A DNA stretch of 52,228 nucleotides from an uncultured Bacteroidales bacterium (GTDB lineage Bacteria > Bacteroidota > Bacteroidia > Bacteroidales > Bacteroidaceae), in contig CADCBO010000016.1 of the NCBI GenBank assembly GCA_902799685.1, forward strand, positions 1-52,228, in the 5' to 3' direction. The translations under genes and the position numbers were made by a program. Below are positions 19,220-29,517 of this stretch, in pieces. Positions within the stretch are counted from its first letter, which is position 1. Each line of letters begins with the position of its first letter. Under the pieces are notes generated by a model, which saw only the letters and a list, made by a program, of their open reading frames with translations, was not told the DNA's origin and searched no databases.

Positions 19220-20218
19220 ATGAAGTTTTTGACAAATGAGAAACTGGTCATCTCCGGCGCAGCCGGCATGATCGGATCAAACATGGCACAGACTGCCATA
19301 ATGATGGGACTGTCATCAAACATCTGTCTTTATGATGTTTATCTGCCCGGTCTGGAGGGTGTGGTTGAGGAACTCCGTCACTGCTCATTCCCCGGTGTAA
19401 ACATCACCTTCACCGACAAGGTTGAGGAGGCTTTCAAGGATGCCAAGTACATGGTTTCATCAGGTGGCGCACCCCGTAAGGCCGGTATGACCCGTGAGGA
19501 TCTGCTGGTTGGCAACGCCAAGATTGCCGAGCAGCTGGGTAAGGATATCAAGACCTACTGCCCCGATCTGAAGCACTGCGTCATCATCTTTAACCCGGCC
19601 GATATCACCGGTCTGGTAACCCTGGTTTACTCAGGTCTGAAACCTTCACAGATCACCACTCTGGCCGCTCTTGACTCTACACGTCTGCAGAGCGCACTTG
19701 CCAAGCATTTCGGCATAGCTCAGGACAAGGTTACCACAGCCCGCACATACGGTGGTCATGGTGAGCAGATGGCAGTGTTTGCATCAACCGCAAAGATTGA
19801 CGGCAAGCCTCTGACCGACATCATCGGCACTCCCGCTCTAACTAACGATCAGTGGGCCCAGATGAAGCAGGATGTCATCAAGGGCGGAGCCAAGATAATC
19901 GAGCTGCGCGGACGTTCTTCATTCCAGAGCCCCTCTTTCGTTTCAATCGAGATGATCGGCGCTGCCATGGGCGGTCAGAAGTTCGAGTGGCCCGCAGGCT
20001 GCTACGTGAACAACTCACAGTTCAAGAACGTGATGATGGCTATGCCTTCAACCATTGACGCTACCGGCGTTCACTACACCGATGTCAAGGGTACCGCTAC
20101 CGAGATGGCCGATATCGAGGCCAGCTACAAGCATCTGCAGGCTATGCGCGACGAGGTTATCTCACTTGGCGTACTTCCCGCAGTAAGCGAGTGGAAGAAA
20201 TACAACCCCAATCTCTGA
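19220..20218 (+). CDS. mdh: Malate dehydrogenase (NAD)
   Basis: Interconverts malate and oxaloacetate, here probably in the reductive branch from oxaloacetate to succinate. The nucleotide-binding GAAGMIG lies at 13-19. Substrate-binding and catalytic residues are in place: R86 and R92 in APRKAGMTRED, N125 in NPAD, D152 and R155 in LDSTRL, and H180 in TYGGHGEQM. The 332 residues suit the Bacteroidetes form. Codon use is strongly biased, as in tuf, suggesting high expression. It is monocistronic: its own promoter lies upstream and a strong terminator follows. Confidence 0.95.
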   Translation: MKFLTNEKLVISGAAGMIGSNMAQTAIMMGLSSNICLYDVYLPGLEGVVEELRHCSFPGVNITFTDKVEEAFKDAKYMVSSGGAPRKAGMTREDLLVGNAKIAEQLGKDIKTYCPDLKHCVIIFNPADITGLVTLVYSGLKPSQITTLAALDSTRLQSALAKHFGIAQDKVTTARTYGGHGEQMAVFASTAKIDGKPLTDIIGTPALTNDQWAQMKQDVIKGGAKIIELRGRSSFQSPSFVSIEMIGAAMGGQKFEWPAGCYVNNSQFKNVMMAMPSTIDATGVHYTDVKGTATEMADIEASYKHLQAMRDEVISLGVLPAVSEWKKYNPNL

Positions 20219-20241
20219 TTCATAGATTGGATACAAGACAG

Positions 20242-20275
20242 GAGCGTGCAGAAAAATCTGCACGCTCTTTTCTTT
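20242..20275 (+). terminator. Intrinsic terminator of mdh
   Basis: GAGCGTGCAGA, loop AAAA, TCTGCACGCTC: a perfect 11-pair stem followed by TTTTCTTT, starting 23 bases after the mdh stop. Confidence 0.92.
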
Positions 20276-20329
20276 ATCCTGACCAACCTTTTCCATAAAA
20301 AAGAGATACATATTATTTTTTGCATTATA

Positions 20330-20362
20330 TTTGGAAAAAGAGAATGGCAATAGTTAGATTTG
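20330..20362 (+). promoter_or_regulatory. Promoter of the first HTCS gene
   Basis: TTTG (20330-20333), 21 bases, TAGATTTG (20355-20362), then CAT. It fits the Bacteroidetes consensus and would give a leader of about 25 bases to the ATG at 20394. Confidence 0.65.
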
Positions 20363-20393
20363 CATTATAATAACAGAACTAATGGGGTCCGAC

Positions 20394-23300
20394 ATGAAAA
20401 AAATAATAATAACAACATTTGCCGTCTTATACTCATCGCTTATCTGGGCAATAAACGGTATGGCCATATCACAGAGTACAATAGGCGATGGATTGGAGAG
20501 CCAGTCCTTGAATACTATATCAAAAGACAGGCAAGGACGTCTGTGGGTTGGTTCTGATGTGGGACTCTCTCTCATCTCAAACGGAACAGTAACTAATATC
20601 CGGGATATACCCTCCGAAGGAGGACTTATAATACTCGGCAACATCAACAGTATAGTCTGCACCGAGACCGTGCTTATGGCATGTGACGACCGTATTCTTC
20701 ACTATGACCACGAAAACGGTTTTGCCAAGACACTCCGATATGATGACAGGATACTTCATTCCGACGGATTCCTGCTTGAAGGTGACATAGCCACCTTCTA
20801 CGACAAGGATTCACGCAGTCTTTACTCTTATGACATGAAAAACTCAGAATGCACTATGGTTGCAGTCCTGAAAGGAAATGAAGATTACTCTTTCTGCAAG
20901 ATCCTGCGATCTGAATCAGACAGTACAATATTATATTTGGCAGACAATACTTTCGGATTATACCGTTATAACCGCCGCAACGGCTCATTCGGACACATAT
21001 CCGGAACAGATTTCCCCATTACAGCCCAGGCCACTTCAATAGACAACAGCAACGTTATCTGGATATCCGTACCATCCCAAGGCATTAAGGGATATTACAT
21101 TAACAGCAACTATGAAATGGTTGCCGCATACAACACTCTTAACTGTGACTTGCCTTCAAATGACATATCTTTGATAACCCCTCTTACTGACGGCAATCTA
21201 CTTACATGCCATTACGATGCAGGACTCAGCTTGATTGAACGCAGGAACATCAAGAACGGTAAAGTCCAGGTGAGCGTCATCCCCAATATCATGAATGTAA
21301 CAAGCACGTTAGTCAACCGGCAGGAATGGGAGATCCTTTATGCTACAGCCGGTTTCGGACTCATATCCACAAAAAAGACTTTCATTGACCAGATACGGTT
21401 TATTCATGAACAGAAAGAGGGCATAATAAGTTATGAGAACTATACATCGGCGATTGAAGAACCAGAAGGAACCGTGATACTGGCTACAAATAACAACGGA
21501 TTATGCCGAATGGACCCTGTGACAGGAAGGAAGGAATCATTCAGGGAGACTTCCTGGTTGTCAATAACATCAATGTGCCGATATGACAGGAAACACATTC
21601 TTATGTCAAATGACGGTAACGGGCTGGTCCTGTTCAGTCCCTCGGATGGCAGCATCTCCTCACTCAAGAACCACCCTGCACTTGGATTTCTTTCAAACAT
21701 AAAATCCCGTAACACCCTTTTGGTTTCATCACCCGACGGGGATATCTATATCTTCAATGCAGACTCACATCATTATGTATTCCGTAAGTCAAAAAACGAG
21801 ATTGAAGAACTGAACATTATTTCTCAAGACGGTCTTCCTGTCAGTTCCATAGAAAATGTCTGCGTTTCGGATTACGCCGTCTATGTAACCTATAGGGGTG
21901 CCATACTGGAGATTGGTTTTGACTCTACATACAGCCGATGTATCTTTCACAACAAAGACAAAGTGATCCACAATATCACGTCTATGTCGGCCAATTCACA
22001 AGGGGAACTGTTCTTTACTGAACCGGAAGGCCTGCATCGTTATGATCCAAGATCCAATTTCGATGAACTTCTTGTTAATACCTGGGGCAATGGACGGTTC
22101 ATGAATGTTGCCATTGACATTAATGACCGTATCTGGTTCACTACAACCAATGAATATCTGCATCTGTATGATTTCTCAAAAAAGGAACTGCTGATGTACT
22201 CTCTGGAGGATGGAGTACCGGACTCACGTTTCCTTAATACGTTTTCCATCTGCACGACATCGGGTATTATCCTTTTCCCTAATGCTAACGGATTGGTTAC
22301 AATAAACACTAACGGTCCTCTGATGTATGACACTCCTCCAGTACAAGTAACATGCACATCGGCCAGAACAGACAAAAAAACCATAACCTGGAACGAATTG
22401 GCAAATTCCATTACGCACCCTGTACGCCTTCCGGTCAAGTTCAGGGAACTATACCTGGAATTTTCGGCAAACTCATTCAATCCTATCTATCCACACCTGC
22501 TCACGTACGATATTTACAGGGACAATACACTTGTAATGTCTCTGAGCACCACAAAGACCTCAATCACTATCCCCAAGATGGAAAACGGCACATACAGCGT
22601 GGATATCAGACAAGCCTACCGTAAAGGATTGAGCGACCCTCAGACCATAATGTGCTTCAAGATTCCAAGACCTTTCTTCGGAACCATACCCGGAGTGCTA
22701 GTGTCTCTTATACTGATTTTGTTATTCGGTTACTCCATTGCAAGGATCTCAAGCAATATCGAGAAGAACAGGATGGAAAAAGCCATGGCGGCACAGGACA
22801 TAAAGAACAGGGAAGACAAAATAGCATTCCTGTCAAATATAGCCCACGAACTACGTACGCCACTCTCACTGATATACAATCCCGTCAAGGATTTCCTGCA
22901 GGAGAAATCTGTAGATGGCATTGATTATGAACGCATGGAGCGCATATTTAACCAGGTGAACAAGATGACGGTAATGGTCAACATGATACTTGACAGCAGC
23001 CGTGCCGACGTGAACAAGGCTGACATCCTCATGGAAGAAGTCAATCTGAACGAATGGCTGAACTTCCTGCTTGAAGACTACCGTATTGACTGCTATGGCA
23101 AAGGATTCAGTCTCAAGTTCTTGATGGACAATTCCATAGGGACTGTATCCGTTGACAAGAGAATCATAGAGACCGGATTGTCCAACATGGTGAACAATGC
23201 CATCAAATACAGCACCAGCGGAACATCCATAACAGTAAGTACATCCAGAATGGGAGACATGATCCGCGTGTCGGTCAAGGATCAGGGAAAGGGATTCTCA

Positions 23301-24353
23301 TGCGACCCTGAAGACCTGTTCAAACGCTATTACAGGGAGAATGCCGACAGTTCCATTCCAGGTTACGGATTGGGACTCCCTTACGCACGTCTTCAACTCA
23401 GCCTGATAGGAGGCAATATGTCGGCCTGTCACAACGATGACGGTGTGGGTTCCACTTTTTATATGGAGTTCCCTGCAGTAGCTGGAGAGAAGCGTTCACC
23501 TGTAAACACCGCTGCAGCAAAAGAAAAAACAGACAAAGCGCATTCATTACAGGCCGGCAGTCCAAAGGAGGGAATGGCACAGGACTTTGATACCAACAAC
23601 ATGAGCATCCTCTATGTCAGCAGCGATGAAGCACAGACAGAGTCTTTTATAAATACCTTCAAAGACATGTTCCGCATTATCCTTAACGCCAAGAAGGATA
23701 AGGAAGCCGTGAAAATGCTGAAGCGCATGGACGTAGACCTGGTCATAAGCGATGTTGACATGCCGGACATAGACGGATTTGAGCTTTGCAAGACAATAAA
23801 AAGCACATTGGAGATAAGCCATATTCCCGTAATACTTCTAACTTCACGCAGCGATGAAAGGAACAGAAGCCTGGGATATAAAGCCGGTGCAGACGCGTTC
23901 ATAGCAAAGCCCTATGATTCTGACCGCATGTACAGCATTATAATAAGCCAGCTTGGCGGAAGGTTTGAGATAAAACGGCAGTATCGTTTCGGATTCTTCA
24001 AAAAAATGAATCCTGACCAGACTTTCAGCTTTACCGACGAGGATTTCATACGGTCTCTCAATGATCTGATTGAAGTAAACCTGTCTGATTCAGGACTGAA
24101 CGAAGAATCCATCATCGTAAAACTTGGTTTGACACGTGATATGATGCAGAAGAAGATGGAGGGTCTTATGGGTACCAACCTTTCAGACTACCTGAACGGC
24201 ATTAGGATAGAGACTGTAAGATTCAAGTTGTCAAATACTGATGACGGACTTGATACCATTGCCCGGGATACAGGATTCAGCAGTATTGAAGCCATGAGCA
24301 AGGCTTTCAAGCATGAAACGGGCAAGAATGTTTTTTCAGTAAGGAAAGAATAG
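20394..24353 (+). CDS. Hybrid two-component system protein (HTCS), degenerate receiver
   Basis: One-protein signalling system. Start at 20394 gives MKKIIITTFAVLYSSLIWA as signal peptide; an ATG at 20382 adds four residues. Order: periplasmic beta-propeller-type repeats (about 20-640, e.g. GRLWVGSDVGLSLISNG), Y_Y_Y domain (about 690-755), membrane helix (about 766-787), HisKA with H818 in IAHELRTPLSLIYNP, ATPase domain (NNAIKYS, GYGLGL), receiver, and AraC-type HTH. The receiver keeps phospho-acceptor D1120 (ISDVDMPDIDG), the Thr and the Lys, but the acidic pair that binds Mg2+ reads Ser-Ser (1076-1077, LYVSSDEA). The HTH also departs from the family near its end. It is paralogous to the next gene. 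No susC/D or glycoside hydrolase genes adjoin it, so the ligand is unknown. Confidence 0.93.
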   Translation: MKKIIITTFAVLYSSLIWAINGMAISQSTIGDGLESQSLNTISKDRQGRLWVGSDVGLSLISNGTVTNIRDIPSEGGLIILGNINSIVCTETVLMACDDRILHYDHENGFAKTLRYDDRILHSDGFLLEGDIATFYDKDSRSLYSYDMKNSECTMVAVLKGNEDYSFCKILRSESDSTILYLADNTFGLYRYNRRNGSFGHISGTDFPITAQATSIDNSNVIWISVPSQGIKGYYINSNYEMVAAYNTLNCDLPSNDISLITPLTDGNLLTCHYDAGLSLIERRNIKNGKVQVSVIPNIMNVTSTLVNRQEWEILYATAGFGLISTKKTFIDQIRFIHEQKEGIISYENYTSAIEEPEGTVILATNNNGLCRMDPVTGRKESFRETSWLSITSMCRYDRKHILMSNDGNGLVLFSPSDGSISSLKNHPALGFLSNIKSRNTLLVSSPDGDIYIFNADSHHYVFRKSKNEIEELNIISQDGLPVSSIENVCVSDYAVYVTYRGAILEIGFDSTYSRCIFHNKDKVIHNITSMSANSQGELFFTEPEGLHRYDPRSNFDELLVNTWGNGRFMNVAIDINDRIWFTTTNEYLHLYDFSKKELLMYSLEDGVPDSRFLNTFSICTTSGIILFPNANGLVTINTNGPLMYDTPPVQVTCTSARTDKKTITWNELANSITHPVRLPVKFRELYLEFSANSFNPIYPHLLTYDIYRDNTLVMSLSTTKTSITIPKMENGTYSVDIRQAYRKGLSDPQTIMCFKIPRPFFGTIPGVLVSLILILLFGYSIARISSNIEKNRMEKAMAAQDIKNREDKIAFLSNIAHELRTPLSLIYNPVKDFLQEKSVDGIDYERMERIFNQVNKMTVMVNMILDSSRADVNKADILMEEVNLNEWLNFLLEDYRIDCYGKGFSLKFLMDNSIGTVSVDKRIIETGLSNMVNNAIKYSTSGTSITVSTSRMGDMIRVSVKDQGKGFSCDPEDLFKRYYRENADSSIPGYGLGLPYARLQLSLIGGNMSACHNDDGVGSTFYMEFPAVAGEKRSPVNTAAAKEKTDKAHSLQAGSPKEGMAQDFDTNNMSILYVSSDEAQTESFINTFKDMFRIILNAKKDKEAVKMLKRMDVDLVISDVDMPDIDGFELCKTIKSTLEISHIPVILLTSRSDERNRSLGYKAGADAFIAKPYDSDRMYSIIISQLGGRFEIKRQYRFGFFKKMNPDQTFSFTDEDFIRSLNDLIEVNLSDSGLNEESIIVKLGLTRDMMQKKMEGLMGTNLSDYLNGIRIETVRFKLSNTDDGLDTIARDTGFSSIEAMSKAFKHETGKNVFSVRKE

Positions 24354-24364
24354 GTTTTTCTTTA

Positions 24365-24396
24365 TTTGCGTATTCGGTTCATTTTATTTACATTAG
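24365..24396 (+). promoter_or_regulatory. Weak candidate promoter of the second HTCS gene
   Basis: TTTG (24365-24368), 20 bases, TACATTAG (24389-24396). The spacing is right but the -7 box matches only six of eight positions. It would allow the second HTCS to be made separately from the first. Confidence 0.35.
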
Positions 24397-24417
24397 CCAA
24401 ATCAATTGATAACCGCG

Positions 24418-27400
24418 ATGAAGAGACTACTGACAATTATCACCGTTTCTTTCATTTCCTTTATGGCCGTTAACGCCAGATACCTTCAACAGGTAGAGAT
24501 AGGAACTGACAAAGGACTCAGCTGCAATGCGGTCAAGTCATTCACTAAAGATGTCTATGGACGCCTGTGGGTAGGCACCATAAATGGAGCTGACCTGATA
24601 TCGAACGGTTCTATCAGGCAATACCAGTATTTCACCGTAAACGGCAATGACATCGTTACAGGCGATGTGGCTTCAATAGGCTGTACCCGAAGAGCCATAA
24701 TCGCCACCAGAACCCATATCATAGACTTTGACCCCGACAATGACTCCACCCGCATAGTAACATACAATGACAAAATAATCAGGACCGATTACATAATGAT
24801 GAAAGGCGATACCGCCTATTTCTTCAATATTCCGCTATGTGCCATAATGATGTATGACCTGGTCAACTGCAATACTACAATAGTAGCACAATTCCCTACC
24901 GAACGCCGTTTCCTGTTTACAAAGATTCTCGGCATTTCAAATGATAATGACCAGTTGCTGCTGGCCGAAGAGGACAGGGGTTTCTACTCTCTTAATCTGG
25001 TGACAGGAAACCTGACCCATATGGACATGCTTGGAGACAACATAAACCCAAGAGCGGCTTTTATAGACTCAAATGACATTTTATGGGTATCATATAAGAA
25101 CAAAGGCATAACAGGCTACTATGTCAAATCGGGATTTGACATGATAGCGCATTTTGATACAGGCAATTCTCAGATACCCGGAGGTAACATAAACGCCATA
25201 GAAGAGATGCCGGACGGTAACCTGCTTATCTGTACCATGGAATCTGTCTGCATACTGAACCGCAAAAGCGGTAAGATAGAAGACAAGCCTTTCAGAACCA
25301 TCTCTCCTGTTCATGTACTCTGTGCAATGGCTGACAAAAAGGAGAACAGAATCATTTTGGGAACATTGCACCGAGGCATTATTACGGTCAAGGAATCTTT
25401 TTTCCATACAATAAACAGTACCAATATGGAAAGTAATGTTGAAACCGACATTATTCCCATATCAGCATATCAGGATGAGAACGGAACCATCTGGTTCGGA
25501 ACTGGCGGTTCCGGACTGGTAAGGTTCAATGAGAAAACCGAGGAGTTCATTCCTATACCTGCCACCAATGGTATGAGAATTATGAATATCTGCCAATATG
25601 ACAAGGACAATCTGCTCATCACAGACCGGACCAAAGGACTGTTTCTGTACAATTCCCGAAGAGGAACTGTCAGTCAAGCCACATTTCTGACAGATGCCGG
25701 CATAAGCATTTCATCCTCAAGACTCTCCAACCTTAAGACATTATCCACACCTGACGGAGACATAATGCTCTTCAACTGCAACGGTCGCCACTTCATTTAC
25801 CGTCACAAGATTGGCGAAGTGCGTGAGATCATACTCCAGATGAACGGAGAAGAGAACAGGGGACTTGTTGAGGAAATAATGATGCAACCTTCACATGCTA
25901 CCGTAGTATGCGGCGGATGTATCTATGAGATTGACTACAAGACACTGCTGGCCAGACTCATTTTCCAAAGCCAGGATAACGGACACAGTGCCATATCACA
26001 TGTAGCCGAAGACTCTCACGGTATCATCTGGGCTTGTTCACCCGACCAACTAATATGCTTTGATCCACGAGCAAATAAGGTTTCATACATTATGGGCAAT
26101 CAGGACAACGGAGTATTCCTGTCTATGACCATAGACAATAAGGACCGGCTTTGGATTACCACTGATGATGCCATGATAATAATGTATGATACCAATGACA
26201 AGGAATTGAAAGAACCGTATTCATATTATGGACGGGATTGCGGAACAATGCTGAACTTCCTTACCAATTTCTCACTGAAATCAGAGAACGGCCTCATCTA
26301 CTTCCCGCATACATCAGGACTTATGGTAATCAATCCGGAGGATATCAACATACGTTACGACAGCGAGCCTTTCCTCATCGCCCTGACCAAGATAGTATTG
26401 GATGGAGTTGTACATGAAGCTACCAGTAACAGACAGAACAGCAAGGCCCTGAATATTCCCAGCAAATTCTCGCAACTGGAAATCCATATAGCATTGAACC
26501 AATTTGACCCTACTGGCAATGTTCCTATCAAATATACATTACTCAAAAAGGGACGCCCCTACCCTGTCCTTGAGAATATTACAGGAAACACTTCATTCAA
26601 CATACCCAAATCAACCCATGGATTATTCACTGTCATGGTCAGCCAACACACCATACAAGGATGGAGTGAGCCTCAGGAACTACTTTCATTCAATGTGGCA
26701 CGACCTTTTATTATGACTGTTCCGGCTTATCTTCTTATCATATCCATAATCATATCCATAAGCGTAACCATATCCAAAGTCAGCATCAGCCTGAAACAGA
26801 TTGACATGGATCGCGCCATGAACGCTCAGGAAAACAAGCACAAGGATGACAAAATCTCATTGATGTCAAATCTGGCACATGAACTCCGCACCCCACTCTC
26901 CCTGATATACAATCCGGTAAAGGACATGCTTGAGGAGAAAGCTGTCAAAGGAATTGACTATGAACGCATGGAGCGAATATTCAGCCAGGTCCAGAAAATG
27001 ACGGACATGGTAAACACCATTCTGGACAAGGGCACCAATGATGTAAGCAAGAGCGATATCGTAATAGAGCAAGTGGATCTAAACAAATGGCTCGGCAAGA
27101 TAATAGAGGACTTCAAGATTGACTGCTACGCCAAGGGGCTCAAGACAAGCTTTATACCTGATTCCGCTTTAGGAATGGTTGATATGGATGTCAATATGGT
27201 TGAGGTTGCCGTGAACAACATTATGAGCAACGCCATAAAATACAGCGACACAGGTACCATAACCATTTCCACAGCGCATGAAAAAGGAATAATACGGATT
27301 ATTTTCCAGGATGAGGGACGAGGATTCACCTGTAAACCGGAGGAGCTGTTCAAGCGCTATTACAGGGAGAATGAAAACATTCCCGGTTATGGTTTAGGAT

Positions 27401-28392
27401 TGTCATATTCAAAACTGATGATTGAAACTTTGGAAGGCAAGATTAAGGCCGAAAAGAACAATGGTCCGGGCTCTACATTCACCATTGAGATACCCGATGA
27501 CCTAGCCGAAAGATTCAAAAAAGTGCAATCATCCAAATCTCAAGCTCCCGCAACGGCCGGAAATACCGATATGGGGAACATTGACGACCAGGCACAGCAT
27601 GATGAGGTCAATTTTGACACAAAGAGTATGACATTGCTCATTGTCGATGACCAGGATGATATTCTTCAGTTCATTAAAGACGAATACTCTCCGCTGTTCA
27701 AGACCATCTATACAGCACATGACGGCAAAGAAGCACTGGACATTATCCGGCAACGCATGCCCAACGTGGTAGTCAGTGACATAATGATGCCTCGTATGAA
27801 TGGATTTGAACTATGTAAAACCATAAAGACCGATCTGGAATTGAGCAGTATCCCTGTAATACTGCTCACATCCAGAAGCGATCCCAAAAACCAGGACATG
27901 GGCTACAAGATGGGGGCCGACTCTTTCCTGCCCAAGCCGTTTGACTCCAAGCTTCTTTACAAGATAATCAGAAGCCAGCTCAAGAACAGGTTTGAGATAA
28001 AGCGTCAGTACGCCACATCATTCTTTACCGCCATATCAGAGGACCAGACATTCAGTGCCGCCGATGAGCAGTTCGTACTCAAGCTCAACCGCTTTATACG
28101 TGAGAACCTGAGCAATACCATGCTTGGCGTGGATATGATTGTGGATCACATGAACGTATCACGTACCACCCTGTTCAACAAGATGAACAACCTGGTAGGT
28201 GCATCCACAAACAAGTACATACGCCGCATAAGGATTGAGGCTGCCAAAGAGATGCTCTCCAAGACAAACAAGTCAGTAGGAACCATCGCCGAGGAGACAG
28301 GATTCTCTGAGAGCCAGTATTTCAGCACGGTGTTCAAGCAGGAAACAGGAATGACACCATCACAGTTCAAGGATTCACTGCGCAATTTATAA
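24418..28392 (+). CDS. Hybrid two-component system protein (HTCS), intact receiver
   Basis: Tandem paralogue of the preceding gene, about 1324 residues from the ATG at 24418 (an in-frame TTG at 24406 is rejected). Signal peptide MKRLLTIITVSFISFMAVNA; periplasmic propeller repeats (GRLWVGTINGADLISNG, GTIWFGTGGSGLVRF); Y_Y_Y domain; membrane helix about 768-790; HisKA with H821 (LAHELRTPLSLIYNP); ATPase (NNIMSNAIKYS, GYGLGLSYSKL); receiver with acidic pair D1077-D1078 and phospho-acceptor D1121 in VVSDIMMPRMNG; and a canonical AraC HTH (SRTTLFNKMNNLVG, ETGFSESQYFSTVFKQETGMTPSQF). All signalling residues look functional. The two proteins align almost without length change. The gene is convergent with dprA, 12 bases apart, with no terminator seen. 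Confidence 0.95.
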   Translation: MKRLLTIITVSFISFMAVNARYLQQVEIGTDKGLSCNAVKSFTKDVYGRLWVGTINGADLISNGSIRQYQYFTVNGNDIVTGDVASIGCTRRAIIATRTHIIDFDPDNDSTRIVTYNDKIIRTDYIMMKGDTAYFFNIPLCAIMMYDLVNCNTTIVAQFPTERRFLFTKILGISNDNDQLLLAEEDRGFYSLNLVTGNLTHMDMLGDNINPRAAFIDSNDILWVSYKNKGITGYYVKSGFDMIAHFDTGNSQIPGGNINAIEEMPDGNLLICTMESVCILNRKSGKIEDKPFRTISPVHVLCAMADKKENRIILGTLHRGIITVKESFFHTINSTNMESNVETDIIPISAYQDENGTIWFGTGGSGLVRFNEKTEEFIPIPATNGMRIMNICQYDKDNLLITDRTKGLFLYNSRRGTVSQATFLTDAGISISSSRLSNLKTLSTPDGDIMLFNCNGRHFIYRHKIGEVREIILQMNGEENRGLVEEIMMQPSHATVVCGGCIYEIDYKTLLARLIFQSQDNGHSAISHVAEDSHGIIWACSPDQLICFDPRANKVSYIMGNQDNGVFLSMTIDNKDRLWITTDDAMIIMYDTNDKELKEPYSYYGRDCGTMLNFLTNFSLKSENGLIYFPHTSGLMVINPEDINIRYDSEPFLIALTKIVLDGVVHEATSNRQNSKALNIPSKFSQLEIHIALNQFDPTGNVPIKYTLLKKGRPYPVLENITGNTSFNIPKSTHGLFTVMVSQHTIQGWSEPQELLSFNVARPFIMTVPAYLLIISIIISISVTISKVSISLKQIDMDRAMNAQENKHKDDKISLMSNLAHELRTPLSLIYNPVKDMLEEKAVKGIDYERMERIFSQVQKMTDMVNTILDKGTNDVSKSDIVIEQVDLNKWLGKIIEDFKIDCYAKGLKTSFIPDSALGMVDMDVNMVEVAVNNIMSNAIKYSDTGTITISTAHEKGIIRIIFQDEGRGFTCKPEELFKRYYRENENIPGYGLGLSYSKLMIETLEGKIKAEKNNGPGSTFTIEIPDDLAERFKKVQSSKSQAPATAGNTDMGNIDDQAQHDEVNFDTKSMTLLIVDDQDDILQFIKDEYSPLFKTIYTAHDGKEALDIIRQRMPNVVVSDIMMPRMNGFELCKTIKTDLELSSIPVILLTSRSDPKNQDMGYKMGADSFLPKPFDSKLLYKIIRSQLKNRFEIKRQYATSFFTAISEDQTFSAADEQFVLKLNRFIRENLSNTMLGVDMIVDHMNVSRTTLFNKMNNLVGASTNKYIRRIRIEAAKEMLSKTNKSVGTIAEETGFSESQYFSTVFKQETGMTPSQFKDSLRNL

Positions 28393-28404: not shown

Positions 28405-29517
28405 TCAGCAGGGTTTGCAAAGCGCTCCCGGCGTCTGTATCACAAGGCCTTTCATCTCCAGATTGAAAAGGATGGATGATAAACGCGGATAAGGAATGTT
28501 CAGTTCCGTAATAATGGTGTTGATATGAACTCCCTGTGCTTTTAGCCTGATTCTTTCATATACAACCTTCTCTTCATCTGACAGTTCCGGGAACAGCTCT
28601 TTCTGTACAGGAACATTCTTTCCGGCCTTATCATTCCAGTTCATGGCATTTACAAAGTCTATGGCTGACGTTATCAGACTTGCCCTGTTATCCCTTATCA
28701 GTTCGTTACAACCCACTGAATAAGGATCGCCCACACTGCCGGGAAAGGCAAAACAGTCACGGCTATAGCTTTCTGCTATCTCGGCGGTGATTAGCGAGCC
28801 TCCCTTGGCCGCTGATTCCACTACTACAACCGCATCTGCCATTCCGGCAATCACTCTGTTACGTCTGACAAAATTATGCCCCAACGGAACCGTCCTTGAC
28901 ATAAACTCAGTAACCAACCCTCCGTCAGAAAGCATCTCTTTTGCAACACTGCGATGTGATGTGGGATATATCATATCAAGACCGTGTGCAAGAACAGCAA
29001 TGGTAGGACAGCCAGCCTCAAGAGCCGCCCTATGAGATTCAATGTCTATCCCATATGCCAATCCGCTGACAATAGTGACATCAGGGCATAACCCATGTAA
29101 CTCTTTAATAAAAGTGTGGCACATTCTGCGACCATAGTCGGTAGCCTTTCTTGTGCCTACAATAGCTACCATCCTGGCAGCATTGTAATTGACGTTACCC
29201 AATGAAAACAAGACAAGGGGAGCATCGTTGCAGTCCAGCAAGCGTGCAGGATAATCGGAATCAGCGGGTGTTATGCATCTTATACCGTGTCTTTCAATAA
29301 ACTCCAGTTCTTCACGGACAAAAGAATCATACCCGGAACCGCATAGCGCATCAATGATGTGCATATCGATTCCGGGTATGATTTCTTTAAGATGTTCGCG
29401 ATTCCTGAAGATCTCCTGCGCGCTGCCTAACTGTTCATACAGGTATTTGGCACCTGTACAACCAAGTCCGTCTATTCTGTTTAGAGTGAGCAGCGCCGTC
29501 AGTTCATCTTCCGGCAT
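28405..29517 (-). CDS. dprA: DNA processing protein DprA
   Basis: Loads RecA on incoming single-stranded DNA during transformation; also widespread in bacteria not known to be competent. The 370 residues include an N-terminal HhH/SAM-like region (LNRIDGLGCTGAKYLYEQLG), the Rossmann-like core with VAIVGTRKATDYGRR, IVSGLAYGIDIESHRAAL, GHNFVRRNRVIAGM and GGSLITAEIA, and a C-terminal winged-helix region (about 305-365, INTIITELNIPYPRLSSIL). It lies 20 bases after the OmpA/TPR lipoprotein gene and is probably co-transcribed with it. Confidence 0.94.
   Translation of the reverse strand: MPEDELTALLTLNRIDGLGCTGAKYLYEQLGSAQEIFRNREHLKEIIPGIDMHIIDALCGSGYDSFVREELEFIERHGIRCITPADSDYPARLLDCNDAPLVLFSLGNVNYNAARMVAIVGTRKATDYGRRMCHTFIKELHGLCPDVTIVSGLAYGIDIESHRAALEAGCPTIAVLAHGLDMIYPTSHRSVAKEMLSDGGLVTEFMSRTVPLGHNFVRRNRVIAGMADAVVVVESAAKGGSLITAEIAESYSRDCFAFPGSVGDPYSVGCNELIRDNRASLITSAIDFVNAMNWNDKAGKNVPVQKELFPELSDEEKVVYERIRLKAQGVHINTIITELNIPYPRLSSILFNLEMKGLVIQTPGALCKPC

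Follow-up and report, generated by a model that had tools for sequence, protein, structure and literature searches.

Two adjacent genes in a 52,228-nt stretch of DNA from an uncultured Bacteroidales bacterium of the family Bacteroidaceae (contig CADCBO010000016.1 of the GenBank assembly GCA_902799685.1, positions 1 to 52,228; hereafter "the window") encode hybrid two-component systems (HTCS), termed here HTCS1 and HTCS2. Both proteins exhibit Pfam matches above the cut-off to Reg_prop, HisKA, HATPase_c, Response_reg and HTH_18. Comparison of their sequences with those of their orthologs suggests that the two genes are probably a duplicated hybrid system with divided labour, in which HTCS1 is likely to serve as the kinase for the receiver of HTCS2.

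Active sites and constraint in HTCS1 and HTCS2

The alignment of SILYVSSDEA from HTCS1 (23604–23633) with TLLIVDDQDD from HTCS2 confirms the claim of the initial annotation that the metal-binding acidic pair of the receiver is replaced by Ser-Ser in the first HTCS, and its statement that the acceptor Asp, the Thr and the Lys are retained alongside an intact kinase half is likewise correct for this genome. The residues were identified properly, but their numbering mixed two schemes, with Ser1076, Ser1077 and Asp1120 counted from the second Met and Asp1082-Glu1083 counted from the ATG. The Response_reg profile (PF00072, cut-off 30.2 bits) scores 71.2 bits for HTCS1 and 78.1 bits for HTCS2, and the match in HTCS1 begins at model position 7, immediately past the acidic pair. 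The AlphaFold model of the HTCS1 receiver, built from a 17-row alignment (pLDDT 82.7, pTM 0.79), exhibits alternating strands and helices, and its top matches in the PDB are CheY-type receivers. By profile match, receiver fold and lost active-site residues, HTCS1 is thus assigned a pseudo-receiver, which is predicted to remain non-phosphorylated.

HTCS1 with an adjacent HTCS2 was found in 17 genomes, including the window's own, when this genome was searched together with 60 relatives, of which 36 belong to the same genus (37 genomes in the collection searched). The full set of receiver residues (DD-D-T-K) is intact in 17/17 HTCS2 and 0/17 HTCS1 proteins. No HTCS1 ortholog has an intact acidic pair: Cys-Ala takes its place in 8 and Ser-Ala in 4, and the remaining five each have a version of their own (Ser-Ser, Gly-Gly, Gly-Thr, Cys-Met and Ser-Asp). 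The first position is Cys in 9/17 and Ser in this genome, so that a redox role for that Cys would not apply here. The acceptor Asp is lost in 4/17 (Asn in G007 and G008, Glu in G025 and G031), and G031 exhibits in addition Arg for the Lys. The kinase motifs (His, N, G1 and G2) are intact in all 17 HTCS1 proteins and in 15 of the HTCS2 proteins; the two exceptions are G009, with a masked stretch, and G013, which lacks the CA (catalytic and ATP-binding) domain and shows no HATPase_c match. Ser-Ser itself, whose fixation among orthologs had been proposed as a check, is not fixed and occurs only in this genome, yet the pair is broken in all 17. A recent mutation, the possibility raised by the initial annotation, is ruled out together with a sequencing error, because Asp-Asp is found in none of the 16 other orthologs and 4/17 have lost the acceptor as well. 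Chance or an assembly error behind the broken pair is ruled out too, since 17/17 orthologs in different genomes are affected.

A passage of PMC11253607 describes a contact, S/CHIP-DK, which keeps the DNA-binding domain off and which is present in most, but not all, HTCS. HTCS1 exhibits SHIP in 16 orthologs and SHLP in one, with the contact set including DK in 17/17, and HTCS2 exhibits SSIP-DK in 17/17, i.e. the motif has lost its His in a receiver that hardly varies elsewhere (we assigned D and K ourselves, from a 39-residue spacing equal to that of BT4124). Should the contact act in the described way, the output of HTCS1 would be latched, so that phosphate could not free it, and the output of HTCS2 would be loosened.

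The conservation of individual domains was expressed as mean pairwise identity in the 15 species that possess HTCS1, HTCS2 and an unpaired control HTCS, termed HTCS3 (105 pairs). In this order, the values are 98.7/82.2/82.1% for the DHp (dimerization and histidine phosphotransfer) domain, 82.8/68.6/78.6% for CA, 61.3/95.9/86.8% for the receiver and 53.8/92.7/84.4% for the helix-turn-helix (HTH) domain. For the 12 species that remain after subtraction of the deep-branching G012, G031 and G013, they are 99.1/91.3/86.3%, 84.6/79.8/81.5%, 65.4/98.2/89.4% and 57.5/98.3/87.4%, respectively. The ratios of nonsynonymous to synonymous differences (pN/pS), computed over 17 HTCS1, 17 HTCS2 and 15 HTCS3 sequences, are for DHp, CA, receiver and HTH 0.015, 0.163, 0.333 and 0.387 in HTCS1, 0.155, 0.278, 0.037 and 0.082 in HTCS2, and 0.184, 0.220, 0.123 and 0.153 in HTCS3. 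With pS of 0.56–0.73, synonymous sites have diverged in all domains, which speaks for selection and rules out that gene conversion froze the HTCS1 kinase helices. Three of the four contrasts are firm: the DHp domain of HTCS1 is frozen, the receiver and HTH of HTCS1 are relaxed, and the receiver and HTH of HTCS2 are frozen. The kinase of HTCS2 shows relaxation chiefly in the deep-branching species; elsewhere its constraint is ordinary.

Within the receiver, the conservation of helix α1 is 33% in HTCS1 versus 95% in HTCS2, and strands β4 and β5 of HTCS1 are 85–86% conserved. In known complexes, it is the receiver helix α1 that docks on the kinase. The initial annotation had offered a partner-controlled pseudo-receiver in HTCS1, or phosphorylation of the second receiver by the HTCS1 kinase. 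Both suggestions appear to gain from these comparisons, and the second one is favoured by the combination of a frozen HTCS1 kinase with a frozen HTCS2 receiver, as well as by related loci (see below) whose HTCS1-type kinase sits beside a partner without a functional kinase of its own.

The control has peculiarities of its own. HTCS3 (L087 and other loci) exhibits an unusual H box, HEICAP versus HELRTP, in the rows displayed, and Ser in place of the receiver Thr in 23/23. Of these 23 proteins, 14 were seen as 2–3 kb pieces, so that their lone status rests on match listings, and the HTH end is missing from the open reading frame (ORF) used for G005.

States of the locus and other HTCS

Two early-branching species, G035 and G003, possess a single HTCS, intact at the compared sites, between a lactate/malate dehydrogenase gene and dprA. 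HTCS1 and HTCS2 are preceded by a third gene, T, in three genomes (G013, G031 and G012) and occur without it in fourteen, the window's included, while four (G004, G033, G014 and G023) carry T together with a kinase that lacks the receiver and the HTH. Every one of the 21 multi-gene genomes has dprA next to the locus, and 19 have the dehydrogenase gene there; of the two exceptions, the contig ends in G023, and G026 shows no such gene in ~2.5 kb upstream of HTCS1. The HTCS1 of G026 (L043) also lacks the first 80-odd residues, which possibly points to an assembly fault. In G032, an HTCS and a shorter hybrid kinase lie close to dprA, in a different orientation. In HTCS1 or its kinase-only counterpart the kinase motifs are intact in 21/21 and the receiver in 0/21. 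In a phylogeny computed from six flanking proteins (six of its rows being less than half filled, and the root placed by choice on the long G032 branch), the single-gene species branch first, each of the two-gene states forms one clade, and genomes in the three-gene state lie scattered at the base of the remaining 21. The simplest account of these states would be duplication of a single HTCS followed by complementary loss.

The T proteins retain the receiver residues in 7/7 and an intact set of kinase residues in 0/7. In the six with a readable His site it is occupied by Asn (4), Tyr (1) or His (1); in the last of these, from G012, the CA domain is missing. All four T proteins scanned exceed the cut-off for HTH_18 and none matches HATPase_c. 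The kinase-only proteins exhibit all kinase motifs in 4/4 and lack the receiver and the HTH, for which no remnants were found behind their genes at E 0.01 except for T's own receiver-HTH. No propeller remnants were detected at the same threshold at the genes of G004, G014 and G033, and in G023 the propeller sequence persists in an adjoining ORF. The kinase-only proteins cluster with HTCS1 (support 96/88). With a receiverless kinase as the neighbour of T, this kinase would have to act on the receiver of T, unless an unlinked partner exists. The defects of linked paralogs are thus complementary in the T-kinase pairs; in the HTCS1-HTCS2 pairs there is mostly a receiver defect of HTCS1 only.

Further HTCS were found in the arrays L054, L055, L056 and L057. 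Those in G027 have three members, those in G001 three or at least two (cut by contig ends). Their defects are mixed: some members lack the acceptor His and retain the CA boxes, and some are receiver-defective. In one more HTCS from each of the two genomes (L107 and L108) the acceptor His is replaced (Arg, Lys) and the G1 box is gone, with the receiver and HTH present. Outside the genus, a search with the 254-aa kinase part across 151 genomes of the family, including 9 from the genus, yielded no match accepted as an HTCS1 ortholog, the best among the matches listed being 32–38% identical and below 150 bits. In 12 regions outside the genus, 13/13 HTCS are intact at the compared sites (they were chosen by likeness to the HTCS1 kinase, which biases the set to intact kinases, not to intact receivers). 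One tandem pair is among them, so tandem position alone does not bring defects.

The residue tally covers 66 of 94 HTCS-family ORFs. The other 28 are the 4 kinase-only proteins, 11 from the arrays of G027 and G001, L107, L108, 3 from G032, 7 other HTCS (intact at the compared sites) and 1 propeller piece. The 94 ORFs come from selected stretches, which left out the HTCS3-like matches of e.g. G006, G017, G019, G021, G022, G024 and G030. The loci L058–L073 lie on the same contigs as the G loci and do not constitute independent evidence.

Proposed division of labour and its alternatives

In the mechanism that we favour, HTCS1 would be a kinase specialist, whose pseudo-receiver would take no phosphate via the normal metal site and whose DNA-binding domain would be degenerating, and HTCS2 an output specialist with a nearly invariant receiver and DNA-binding domain. 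A signal sensed by HTCS1, alone or together with HTCS2, would lead to autophosphorylation of HTCS1 on His822; the phosphate would then be passed to Asp1125 of HTCS2, either directly or via cross-phosphorylation within a heterodimer, and phosphorylated HTCS2 would bind DNA. The receiver of HTCS1 may be retained as a structural, contact-making part. Formation of the heteromer, the direction of phosphate flow and DNA binding by HTCS2 alone are all predicted from sequence, which fits a heterodimer and separate homodimers equally. The kinase role of the HTCS1 counterpart seems hard to avoid in the T-kinase loci, where no other linked phosphate source was seen. More tentatively, it is quite possible that the fused HTCS has been undone here into a latched kinase chain and a loosened output chain, which would form an obligate heteromer uniting two different propeller sensors in a single decision, and that one lineage has proceeded to a pseudokinase-regulator and a receiverless kinase, i.e. 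to a near-classical two-component system.

Several observations weigh against this mechanism. The direction from HTCS1 to HTCS2 is an extrapolation, since HTCS2 retains kinase motifs; once the three deep-branching species are set aside, conservation of its kinase half is much like that of the unpaired control, and given this control-like conservation and the motifs in 15/17, HTCS2 may work alone. HTCS1 retains the acceptor Asp in 13/17 and an Asp right behind the pair in 15/17, so that a shifted metal site would be possible in those proteins, and the 17 orthologs probably inherited the loss of the pair from a single event rather than losing it 17 times. The approximately unbiased test does not reject a grouping of the kinase-only proteins with HTCS2 (p 0.304). 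Finally, the defects are not confined to linked sets: L107 (7032–10961) in G027 and L108 (8075–12004) in G001 are dead-kinase HTCS with no HTCS neighbour in 18–19 kb, the HTCS L110 of G032 is also kinase-defective, with Leu for His, and the HTCS3 of G018 (L115, 5209–9195) carries a Gly at the second acidic position (VIDGDD) and is otherwise intact at the compared sites.

An alternative that shares the kinase role and differs in the fate of the receiver is that the receiver and HTH of HTCS1 are functionless remnants heading for deletion. The two domains are the least conserved cytoplasmic parts of the protein (61% and 54%, pN/pS 0.33 and 0.39), in G013 the HTH of HTCS1 is without its second half, and neither domain is present in the related kinase-only genes. 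However, the frame is open through the receiver in 17/17, pN/pS is well below 1, the linkers flanking the receiver contain long invariant runs, the SHIP(SHLP)-DK set is present in 17/17 and strands β4 and β5 are well conserved, which makes simple decay somewhat unlikely. It is less probable still that HTCS1 acts chiefly as a negative partner of HTCS2, i.e. a phosphatase or a sink in the manner of RetS on GacS, with its receiver irrelevant. Such a role would agree with retention of the HELRTP stretch and of the entire DHp domain, and heteromeric kinases of this sort have been described (RetS-GacS, cited in a passage of PMC9491836), but in the T-kinase genomes T has no kinase boxes, nor the His wherever that site can be read, which leaves the HTCS1 counterpart as the only linked source of phosphate, and the HTCS2 of G013 has no HATPase_c match.

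We regard it as very improbable that the HTCS1 receiver is stuck in an active-like state and that HTCS1 by itself is a phosphorylation-independent DNA-binding regulator. Loss of an acidic residue combined with an Asp-to-Glu acceptor can mimic activation, as the title of PDB entry 2jb9 indicates for PhoB ("constitutively-active double mutant D10A and D53E"), and HTCS1 of G025 and G031 has a Glu acceptor; against this, the HTH is the fastest part of HTCS1, its recognition helices differ between orthologs, half of it is gone in G013, and the inhibitory SHIP-DK set is retained. Continued phosphorylation of the HTCS1 receiver, with Asp1082 substituting in metal binding, is hardly credible: it agrees with the Asp behind the pair in most orthologs and with the acceptor, Thr and Lys of this genome, but would be of no help to the four orthologs without the acceptor, one of them also without the Lys, and it is at odds with the poorly conserved helix α1 and with the 100% acidic character of both positions in receivers, given in a passage of PMC12632262.

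Locus layout, known systems and significance

The elements of the locus are collected in Table 1.

Table 1. Genes, domains, active-site residues and other elements of the HTCS1-HTCS2 locus (positions in the window)
Feature	Position	Strand	Description	Basis
Lactate/malate dehydrogenase gene	19220..20218	+	left flank	synteny
HTCS1	20382..24353	+	propeller - HisKA - HATPase_c - predicted pseudo-receiver - degenerate AraC-type HTH, 1323 aa	ORF and Pfam
HTCS1 HisKA (DHp)	22821..23009	+	His822 at 22845-22847	Pfam, aa 814-876
HTCS1 HATPase_c (CA)	23160..23477	+	N, G1 and G2 boxes intact	Pfam, aa 927-1032
HTCS1 predicted pseudo-receiver	23604..23966	+		Response_reg, aa 1082-1187; AlphaFold model
HTCS1 Ser1080-Ser1081	23619..23624	+	site of the metal-binding acidic pair	alignment with HTCS2
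HTCS1 acceptor Asp1124	23751..23753	+	retained in this genome; Asn or Glu in 4/17 orthologs
HTCS1 SHIP	23817..23828	+	motif of the inhibitory contact between receiver and DNA-binding domain	motif from a passage of PMC11253607
HTCS1 Thr1154; Lys1176	23841; 23907	+	numbered from the ATG at 20382
HTCS1 HTH_18	24120..24329	+	weak match, fast evolving	39.8 bits versus 70.3 in HTCS2
Candidate HTCS2 promoter	24365..24396	+	TTTG-N20-TACATTAG, in the HTCS1-HTCS2 gap
HTCS2	24406..28392	+	propeller - HisKA - HATPase_c - intact receiver - intact AraC-type HTH	ORF and Pfam
HTCS2 HisKA	26857..27027	+	His825 at 26878; conserved less than HTCS1 HisKA	Pfam
HTCS2 HATPase_c	27193..27498	+	missing from one ortholog (G013)	Pfam
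HTCS2 receiver	27637..27969	+	nearly invariant; Asp1081-Asp1082 (27646-27651), Asp1125 (27778)
HTCS2 Thr1155, Lys1177		+	further receiver active-site residues
HTCS2 SSIP	27844..27855	+	where S/CHIP is expected	17/17 orthologs
HTCS2 HTH_18	28144..28371	+	nearly invariant	Pfam
dprA	28405..29517	-	right flank	synteny

HTCS2 is 1328 aa long counted from TTG, and the ATG at about 24418 is the likelier start. The candidate promoter in the gap has what we take to be a likeness to the Bacteroides promoter consensus. By a by-eye count, TACATTAG precedes HTCS2 in 13/17 orthologous gaps, and the remaining 4 contain a close variant of it, so HTCS2 may have its own promoter. The region 20219–20381 contains a G+C-rich hairpin with a T run after the dehydrogenase gene and TAnnTTTG boxes ahead of HTCS1, and the hairpin and boxes look alike by eye in many orthologs. 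No genes regulated by the pair were identified, and none of the eight scanned neighbours of HTCS1 and HTCS2 is a polysaccharide-utilisation gene.

RetS and GacS act on a separate regulator, whereas the output proposed here is a part of one of the partners; the likeness lies in kinases interacting in a heteromer, for which they are cited in a passage of PMC9491836. The same source reports that native ChrS and HrrS kinases of Corynebacterium heterodimerised in two-hybrid assays and a truncated form did not. There, too, a dead kinase (the ChrS pseudokinase) accompanies signalling via the kinase of its paralog, but it arose by a lab-evolved frameshift in classical two-component systems, while the split described here is natural, extends over 21 genomes and concerns HTCS. 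The Bacteroides HTCS treated in a passage of PMC11253607 exhibit the identical chain of domains, and their S/CHIP-DK set is found in HTCS1; however, their kinase and receiver are described as operating within one chain and a homodimer, whereas in the present locus two or three chains share the intact parts and HTCS2 has no His in its S/CHIP motif. The same source mentions BT4236 of B. thetaiotaomicron, an HTCS with Gln at the kinase His and CSIP, resembling the T proteins and the SSIP of HTCS2; it was proposed to be phosphorylation-independent, and that passage mentions no partner. With bacterial pseudo-receivers (PMC12632262) and aspartate-less receivers (PMC4395418), HTCS1 shares a recognised PF00072 domain devoid of key active-site residues; it differs from them in that the adjoining gene retains the lost function, with unusually strong constraint on exactly that domain.

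According to a passage of PMC12632262, ~6% of the bacterial receivers in a representative set are pseudo-receivers, and 0.9% of HisKA domains lack the His, so that neither lesion is unusual on its own. Searches of the open-access literature brought up no description of heteromeric HTCS, of complementary loss within HTCS or of such lesions in a complementary arrangement between neighbouring HTCS. HTCS have been described as a sensor kinase and a regulator fused in one chain, and this locus looks functionally unfused. Labelling every HTCS gene a self-contained regulator can therefore mislead annotation. The locus, found in several states among related species, offers natural examples of kinases and receivers that depend on a partner, and it bears on the use of pseudo-receivers, called a mystery in a passage of PMC12632262, and on HTCS heteromers that would combine two signals.

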